A DNA stretch of 64,000 nucleotides, taken from assembly GCA_017656425.1 (NCBI GenBank), contig JACDNV010000007.1, positions 101,254 to 165,253 of the forward strand, read 5' to 3'. This DNA is from Candidatus Neomarinimicrobiota bacterium (GTDB lineage: Bacteria; Fidelibacterota; UBA2242; B5-G15). A model generated the notes under the pieces. That model made no database searches. It was not told the origin of the DNA and saw only the letters and a program-made list of their open reading frames with translations. Below, piece by piece: positions 63,000 to 64,000 of the stretch (its first letter is position 1; each line of letters starts with the position of its first letter). The position numbers and the translations under genes were made by a program.

Positions 63000-63553
63000 T
63001 TGATTGTTTTTGTAGATGGGCTTGGTATTGGCGAGAAAAAAGATACAGATCCTTTATATAAGAATTATTATGAGGTATTGAAATATTTTACAATTGAAAA
63101 TAATTGATTATATTTTCTAATAACATGTATTTTAAAGAAATAAATACCAGGATTGGATTAGAAGGTTTGCCTCAGAGCGCTACCTGTCAGACAGCGTTAT
63201 TTACTGGTTATAAACTTTATAATACGATGGAATGTCATATACCTGGATTACCGAATAAAAGACTAATTTCGATAATCTATAGAACAAATTTATTACAAAG
63301 GCTTGAGAATAGGGGATTAGAAATTGACTTTATAAATGCCTATCATGAAAATTATTTTAAAAGAAGATTTAATAATTTGTCATTAACAACACATCTAGTA
63401 TTGAATCTTAGTAAATCACATTTTTACTTCCTTGAAGATATAAAATCTGGGAATGCTATTTTTGCTGATATTACGAATGAGCACCTTAGGAAAGAGGGAT
63501 ATAATATTGATTTAAGCGCAAAGGCTCAGTGCAAAATGCAGAATGAAAATTGA
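63000..63553 (+). pseudogene. Broken phosphoglycerate-mutase-like metalloenzyme gene
   Basis: The first frame (TTG 63000 to TGA 63107) encodes LIVFVDGLGIGEKKDTDPLY, the N-terminus of alkaline-phosphatase-superfamily metalloenzymes (phosphoglycerate mutase/phosphopentomutase-like) with the metal-binding Asp. The continuation is in another frame from 63104 and has NTRIGLEGLPQSATCQTALF, the nucleophile region of the same family (usual SATGQT; here Gly is Cys). A TTGA overlap joins the two pieces. Homology ends near EGYNIDL, exactly where the 201-bp repeats start, and the metal-ligand His residues of the C-terminal half are missing. It therefore appears frameshifted and truncated. A coupled two-gene arrangement is less likely. 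Confidence 0.75.
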
Positions 63554-64000
63554 AAAATGCAAAATCGCCTTTTGTCAGATTTGGCTTTTGTACTCAAAAT
63601 GTATACAGAAATAAATTTGACTTTTGCACTTTGCAATCTTCATTTTGCAATTGCCGTAAGGCTATCTTGCCCTTCGGGAAATCGCCTTCGGCGACTTCGT
63701 GAATACAAGACGATAAGCGCAAAGGCTCAGTGCAAAATGCAGAATGAAAATTGAAAAATGCAAAATCGCCTTTTGTCAGATTTGGCTTTTGTACTCAAAA
63801 TGTAGACAGAAATAAATTTGACTTTTGCACTTTGCAATCTTCATTTTGCAATTGCCGTAAGGCTATCTTGCACTTTGGGAAATCGCCTTCGGCGACTTCG
63901 TGAATACAAGACGTTAAGCGCAAAGGCTCAATGCAGAATGCAGAGTGCAAATTGAAAAATGCAAAATCGCCTTTTGTCAGATTTGGCTTTTGTACTCAAA
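63514..64000 (+). repeat. 201-bp tandem direct repeats, at least 2.4 copies
   Basis: Units begin at 63514, 63715 and 63916 (AAGCGCAAAGGCTCA...), exact period 201, third copy cut by the window end. Copies 1 and 2 differ at four positions; copy 3 differs more in its first 30 bases. Each unit contains an imperfect long inverted repeat (GCAAAATG-type sequence at the left, CATTTTGC-type at the right, with inner arms GTCAGATTT/AAATTTGAC), then a UUCG-type mini-hairpin (TCGCCTTCGGCGA). Open frames across it are chance products of the repeat. Confidence 0.95.

Follow-up and report, generated by a model that had tools for sequence, protein, structure and literature searches.

The window analysed here, a stretch of 64,000 nucleotides at the end of one contig (C7) of a Candidatus Neomarinimicrobiota genome, closes with a tandem array of a 201-bp repeat. 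The explanation that accounts best for the repeat overall, and that we hold to be probable, is that it derives from a mobile hairpin element, of which it is a non-autonomous form without the gene. In the plan that we propose, such an element has a left end (TTAAGCGC), an arm made of 7-nt repeats (heptads), an open reading frame (ORF), an inverted arm and a right-end hairpin module. If this is correct, the array ties the old puzzle of the intervening sequences (IVSs) of ribosomal RNA to mobile DNA of a far broader class, and we regard that class, with its heptad arms, as a more interesting result than the array itself.

The array at the contig end

An earlier note on this DNA, made from the letters alone, had described a 201-bp tandem repeat in three near-identical copies that match no gene. 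Tandem Repeats Finder bears this out with a period of 201, 2.4 copies, 97% matches and a score of 920 at 63513–64000; comparison with all other insertions sets the exact unit borders at 63512–63712, 63713–63913 and 63914–64000, and moves the start to 63512. The units lie head-to-tail and make up the last 489 bases of the window. The end of the window is the end of contig C7 (165253), and hence the array stops there. The features are as follows.

63512..63712, + strand: unit 1 of the 201-bp element, left end TTAAGCGC, right end ..CAAGACG (from the unit alignment and insertion borders)
63713..63913, + strand: unit 2, joint GACG^ATAAGCGC (from Tandem Repeats Finder and insertion borders)
63914..64000, + strand: unit 3, incomplete, truncated at the contig end
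63528..63566, + strand: left heptad arm of unit 1, 7-nt repeats of the TGCAAAA / TGCAGAA type (from the period-7 tract and the fold)
63567..63621, + strand: spacer of unit 1 (55 bp), the position of the four-helix-bundle ORF in longer copies (from comparison with L044, L033, L036 and L037)
63622..63653, + strand: right (inverted) heptad arm of unit 1, pairing with the left arm
63654..63712, + strand: right-end hairpin module of unit 1, with CCCTTCGGG and TTCG stems, ending ..GTGAATACAAGACG
63000..63511, + strand: host gene cut by the array, 5' part; its 3' part starts at C25:385 of the same genome (from translation and the homologue in the relative G003)

The long imperfect hairpin and additional UUCG hairpin proposed in the earlier note are both recovered when the unit is folded, at −63.1 kcal/mol compared with −43.3 ± 4.1 for shuffled sequences (z −4.8, 0 of 200). 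The second, UUCG-like stem had been said to be present in copy 1 and mutated in copy 2; this is also the case, with CCCTTCGGG at 63670–63678 replaced by CACTTTGGG at 63871–63879. The unit contains neither a gene nor an ORF. Coding by the repeat itself was considered and rejected: the unit amounts to 67 codons, but the frame that continues the host gene has in-frame stops.

Longer copies with a gene

The genome to which the window belongs (2.8 Mb in 50 contigs, 99.66% complete) contains, according to the blast searches on which the copy counts rest, 32 near-complete units at about 15–19 sites, either single or in arrays of up to six, and so the copies in the window are neither chance nor local. 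Nine contig ends fall inside units. The tandem order is not an assembly artefact, because arrays internal to contigs (on C5, C9, C26, C22 and C7) have distinguishable units. If the general explanation is right, it also accounts for the breaks of such metagenome-assembled genomes (MAGs) at these arrays.

Four long copies (L044, L036, L037 and L033), on C11, C5, C9 and C7, begin with the left end of the unit (unit positions 1–52), followed by a 124-codon ORF and then the inverted arm. The ORF is enclosed by the complementary arms; its start lies within the left arm (ATGCAAATTGAAAAATG..) and its stop at the beginning of the right arm. L044 (546 bp) and L033 (504 bp) have the right end of the 201-bp unit and an intact 124-aa ORF, whereas L036 and L037 consist of a long copy followed by 201-bp-like units. 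The complete element measures 504–546 bp when single. Its product matches PF05635 (55.3 bits, cut-off 33.8, E 8e-15), TIGR02436 (78.8 bits, cut-off 24, E 3e-22) and the structure PDB 2rld (E 7e-15), which assigns the fold from sequence. It is a PF05635/TIGR02436 four-helix bundle; the protein of 23S rRNA intervening sequences belongs to the same family. Purifying selection acts on the long-copy protein (dN/dS 0.13 as the median of 50 pairs), and its closest relatives are found in Bacteroidota, Bipolaricaulota and Chloroflexota, with archaeal groups nearby in a tree in which the deep branches are poorly resolved. The 201-bp unit has both ends in common with this parent and, as far as sequence can tell, is its gene-less, non-autonomous derivative. 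Three decisive facts lie beyond the earlier note: the gene carried by the parent, the heptad arms and the rule for insertion sites described below.

Outside its own genome, the 201-bp unit was not found in the 30 relatives searched, apart from one 25-base match. An exact 36-nt pattern had no match in 84,980 genomes, a plasmid collection searched with the element DNA gave none, and viral contigs gave none when searched with the left-end pattern and with the protein. The left end is shared with a Bacteroidales MAG (UBA4073; G031) and a Methanophagales archaeon (G034). Intermediates in which the ORF is partly deleted, with both of its ends kept or only one, occur in UBA4073 (L176 and L179) and in the Methanophagales genome (L183), and in L184 the ORF is wholly lost; all four start with TTAAGCGCAATGG, or a sequence close to it, as the left end. 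In UBA4073, the right module also closes gene-less elements carrying quite different heptads, and the ends and arms are therefore separable modules.

Insertion sites and ends

When the element is removed in silico, genes for ferritin, dihydrouridine synthase and an M3 peptidase, a sulfate-adenylyltransferase-like ORF and one further ORF (at L037) read through. Pfam was run on the first four restored genes; the fourth has a PUA_2 domain across its start, and we take the enzyme to be a sulfate adenylyltransferase. No target base is lost or duplicated in the cut genes, with at most 1 bp (G) being ambiguous. Copies of the element sit within protein genes or intergenically, and not in an rRNA gene; the assembly lacks 23S rRNA, so a copy there may have escaped notice.

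The left neighbour is G at 12 of 15 sites (p 2e-7), the right neighbour is WT at 11 of 14 (p 3e-5) and GWT is found at six of the ten sites with both flanks (p 5e-7), although these counts are not fully independent because contig-end sites are counted from both sides (the window and C25 being one site). Units are joined head-to-tail at G^TTAAGC, a crossover of the GTTRRRY type. In integron cassettes, the crossover is G^TTRRRY and secondary sites are GWT. In the long copies, the right module together with the left end folds in the manner of an integron attC site, with an R box GCGCTTAAC/GTTAGGCGC and an L box GTATTCAC/GTGAATAC (DNA z −3.7, 0 of 200 shuffles), and the modules of UBA4073 likewise fold as attC. 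The right-end module of the 201-bp unit is a degenerate relative of this attC-like end.

The host gene cut by the array in the window had already been broken by an earlier frameshift or stop. Its homologue in G003 is intact (a 312-aa frame) and aligns across the junction with 47% identity over residues 7–173 of 173. The left flank up to 63511 and the start of C25 are the two halves of a gene that is continuous in G003, and therefore the array continues onto C25; it holds at least about four units. The earlier suggestion that the array goes on past the window is thus right in that the array resumes on C25, with the qualification that its stop is due to the end of contig C7 too.

Inverted heptad arms at PF05635 loci

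Almost all PF05635 loci of the relatives have inverted repeats flanking the ORF, in the form of short tandem repeats of locus-specific sequence. To score them, the upstream flank was compared with the reverse complement of the downstream flank, with positions of the same geometry elsewhere in the locus as controls. The arms beat every control in 81 of the 92 PF05635 loci tested, from archaea and many bacterial phyla; with 4–18 controls per locus, roughly 5–20% would be expected to do so by chance. The figure is 46/54 in the focal subfamily, 23/26 among diverse PF05635 members and 12/12 in complete plasmid records (cyanobacteria, Chloroflexota and Bacteroidota). Arms of the diverse set score a mean of 21.3 with their own partner versus 10.6 with the partners of other loci. 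Cross-pairing between loci is also high in the focal subfamily (16.4), because most loci there have TGCAAAA-type heptads. The autocorrelation of the flanks at lag 7 is 0.39, 0.39 and 0.49, compared with 0.25–0.26, with further peaks at lag 14 and, where tested, 21; a minority of PF05635 elements have 8-nt or less regular repeats. As an association, inverted heptad arms are well supported as a general mark of PF05635 loci. Among the papers searched, which did not extend to subscription papers, none was found to state that PF05635 genes generally sit between inverted heptad arms, or to describe dispersed gene-less derivatives of PF05635 elements.

We consider it slightly more probable than its opposite, with less assurance than for the 201-bp repeat, that PF05635 four-helix-bundle genes of bacteria and archaea generally belong to mobile hairpins with inverted 7-nt arrays as arms, and that these hairpins form a distinct class. 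The repeat would vary while the arms stay matched, and gene-less derivatives would spread and amplify in trans; the class would include the intervening sequences of rRNA, the '23S_rRNA_IVP' genes found in defence loci and many of the heptanucleotide repeats, and at least one lineage would have acquired ends like those of integron cassettes. The protein of the IVSs (S23) has been known since the 1990s and is not known to have a function. If its genes do belong to such heptad-armed elements, the spread of IVSs would become testable: the ends are named, there is a rule for the target and there are derivatives without the gene, and the protein, which is under purifying selection, has the heptad hairpin as its predicted ligand.

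PF05635 has been reported in rRNA insertions (PMC4990558, PMC11270868), with both ORF-less forms and PF05635 ORFs among those of the candidate phyla radiation (CPR; PMC11270868). In keeping with the heptad rule, repeated GACAGAT heptamers are found upstream of the ORF in the Coxiella IVS (PMC4990558). The 23S/16S rRNA IVSs of Leptospira, Coxiella and CPR bacteria resemble the present element in being a hairpin with a four-helix ORF in the loop; they differ from it in that the copies described here are scattered through protein genes and the DNA between genes, have fixed ends, form head-to-tail arrays and cause no duplication. The heptanucleotide repeats of bacteria (the short tandemly repeated repetitive sequences, STRR, of cyanobacteria and the TAACTGA repeats of Beggiatoaceae) likewise lie between genes as tandem repeats of 7 nt, in cyanobacteria, Bacteroidota and other groups, whereas the heptads here are inverted arms around a four-helix-bundle gene. 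The wider class would explain many of them; the paper on the TAACTGA repeats of Beggiatoaceae makes no mention of four-helix-bundle genes (PMC4679880).

Members of the same family as the long-copy protein have also been reported in cas loci (PMC3936711, PMC10910872) and in the loci of diversity-generating retroelements (DGRs; PMC10053308), and papers on cas, defence and DGR loci (PMC3936711, PMC10053308) treat them as possible parts of the system, where heptad arms of the kind seen here suggest insertions instead. On the plasmids, loci L233–L244 have four-helix-bundle genes between cas1 and cas2, between drmD and pglX, beside DUF1156/Swt1-HEPN genes and in similar operons. Their heptad arms suggest insertion into defence operons (DISARM/BREX-like and cas) and, if this is so, '23S_rRNA_IVP' genes in cas, DISARM or BREX loci should be read as parts of those systems only with caution.

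Movement of the element

Our hypothesis for the movement of the element is that an integron-like tyrosine recombinase recombines its ends on the folded strand, as the GTTRRRY-type joint and the attC-like right end of the long copies would suggest. Such an enzyme seems the likeliest mover, and its action on a folded strand would account for the lossless insertion, the G^WT preference and the head-to-tail arrays. The four-helix protein would bind the heptad hairpin, as DNA or RNA, and may serve gene-less copies in trans; arrays would then have grown via repeated insertion or unequal recombination. The likeness to integron cassettes and to arrays such as clusters of attC sites lacking integron integrases (CALIN) includes the joint, the uniform orientation of units within head-to-tail arrays, the G^WT sites and the bottom-strand fold at the right end of the long copies. 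Unlike integrons, the element is accompanied by no integrase above cut-off, no attI platform was seen and single insertions are dispersed; unlike cassettes, the 201-bp units are gene-less and lack a good R'' box.

IntI-like tyrosine recombinases (PF13495 plus PF00589; the domains of the one in the Methanophagales genome were checked) are present in G031, G032 and G034, and are candidate movers by co-occurrence only. A decayed fragment in the genome of the window (C8:103416) resembles them. IntI-like recombinases of this kind, with an N-terminal extension, lie in archaea and Bacteroidales (L204 1–1148, L205 1–1189, L207 3309–4601 and L210 about 1900–2170). They have a downstream palindrome of their own, which ends ATATGAACGAGTTA in L204 and in the decayed L210 of the genome studied here and similarly in L207; recombinase and palindrome may be mobile units in their own right.

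Several results weigh against the explanation offered here. The TIGR02249 (IntI) profile finds nothing above its curated cut-off in the genome of the window, of which the tyrosine recombinases are Xer-like apart from the decayed fragment; the recombinases of G031, G032 and G034 are unmatched at model positions ~183–235, the extra-patch segment of IntI, and no element adjoins them. Three of the 15 left flanks, that of the window included, do not end in G, and the attC likeness of the 201-bp units is degenerate because a good paired R'' box is missing. Once a first dimer existed, unequal recombination is just as likely to have enlarged the arrays as further insertions are, and insertion of single copies is inseparable from growth by recombination. 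Compensatory changes were found at none of the 58 predicted pairs among 16 units of the same genome, a weak test because these units are 96% alike.

Other explanations have been weighed against the same evidence. A classical miniature inverted-repeat transposable element (MITE), that is, an internal-deletion derivative of an insertion sequence or transposon mobilised in trans by a transposase of the DDE or HUH type (IS200/IS605, or the RAYT enzymes of repetitive extragenic palindromes), is unlikely. Like MITEs and the REP/BIME palindromes, the repeat is short, non-coding, palindromic and dispersed in many copies with precise ends, and derives from a longer, ORF-bearing parent whose ends it shares; unlike them, it makes no target-site duplication, has arms of heptad arrays and has a longer relative that encodes a four-helix bundle rather than a transposase. 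The Y1 transposase profile PF01797 gives just one weak match in the genome; DDE transposases were not searched for. That match (C5:26438-26671) is unusually placed, within an open frame of 817 aa. The earlier idea of a dispersed, palindromic or MITE-like element that was amplified in tandem is supported by the many precise insertions, which share their ends with one another and with longer copies that carry the gene; a classical MITE is unlikely, as no target-site duplication was seen and the search for Y1 transposases revealed no partner.

We also doubt that the element is chiefly a transcript hairpin cut by RNase III, the DNA copies of which spread by rare non-specific events, as an IVS-type RNA might. 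The protein family and the anatomy of a hairpin with an ORF in its loop are those of rRNA IVSs, the Coxiella IVS with its heptamers is excised by RNase III (PMC4990558) and upstream neighbours are co-directional in 41 of 48 cases, compared with 80 of 108 other gene pairs. This excess is small, however; RNase III cleavage not followed by ligation would ruin the transcripts of the protein genes that house copies, and the identical ends and G^WT preference favour site-specific DNA recombination.

Mobility by reverse transcription, with the four-helix protein as an Avd-like partner of a reverse transcriptase, has in its favour that PF05635 is related to the Avd protein of DGRs (PMC10053308), but is very improbable given that no RVT_1 reverse transcriptase was found in the 99.66% complete genome. 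Equally remote is a functional structured-RNA array or regulatory repeat retained by the host, the second suggestion of the earlier note: the fold energy is strong, but the Rfam search of the window returned tRNAs only, with no family match for the repeat, covariation is lacking, several copies disrupt host genes and the family is absent from the other relatives searched, one short match aside.

Further observations on PF05635 loci

The other PF05635 loci of the same genome (L245, L246, L247 and L248, on C27, C11:5522, C6 and C23) have tracts of different heptads, such as TAGCTTG, GAGTTTG and GAACTTT. In different genera (L064, L069 and L072), elements with unlike heptads follow an apparent CoxS-type 2Fe-2S subunit gene, a junction that reflects either one old insertion with turnover of the heptads or repeated insertion. 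In several archaeal MAGs (L107, L108, L109 and L111), an element follows the same gene end (..VGIDNGENAALLALRILK), and the proteins are 83–92% identical. Half elements in G038 (L185–L188) have an outer palindrome, GTCGCTTCGCTCC/GGAGCGAAGCGAC, beyond the heptad arms. The sequence GGAGCGAAGCGAC, or a near variant of it, also lies directly upstream of start codons in L135 and L144, where it may supply a ribosome-binding site.
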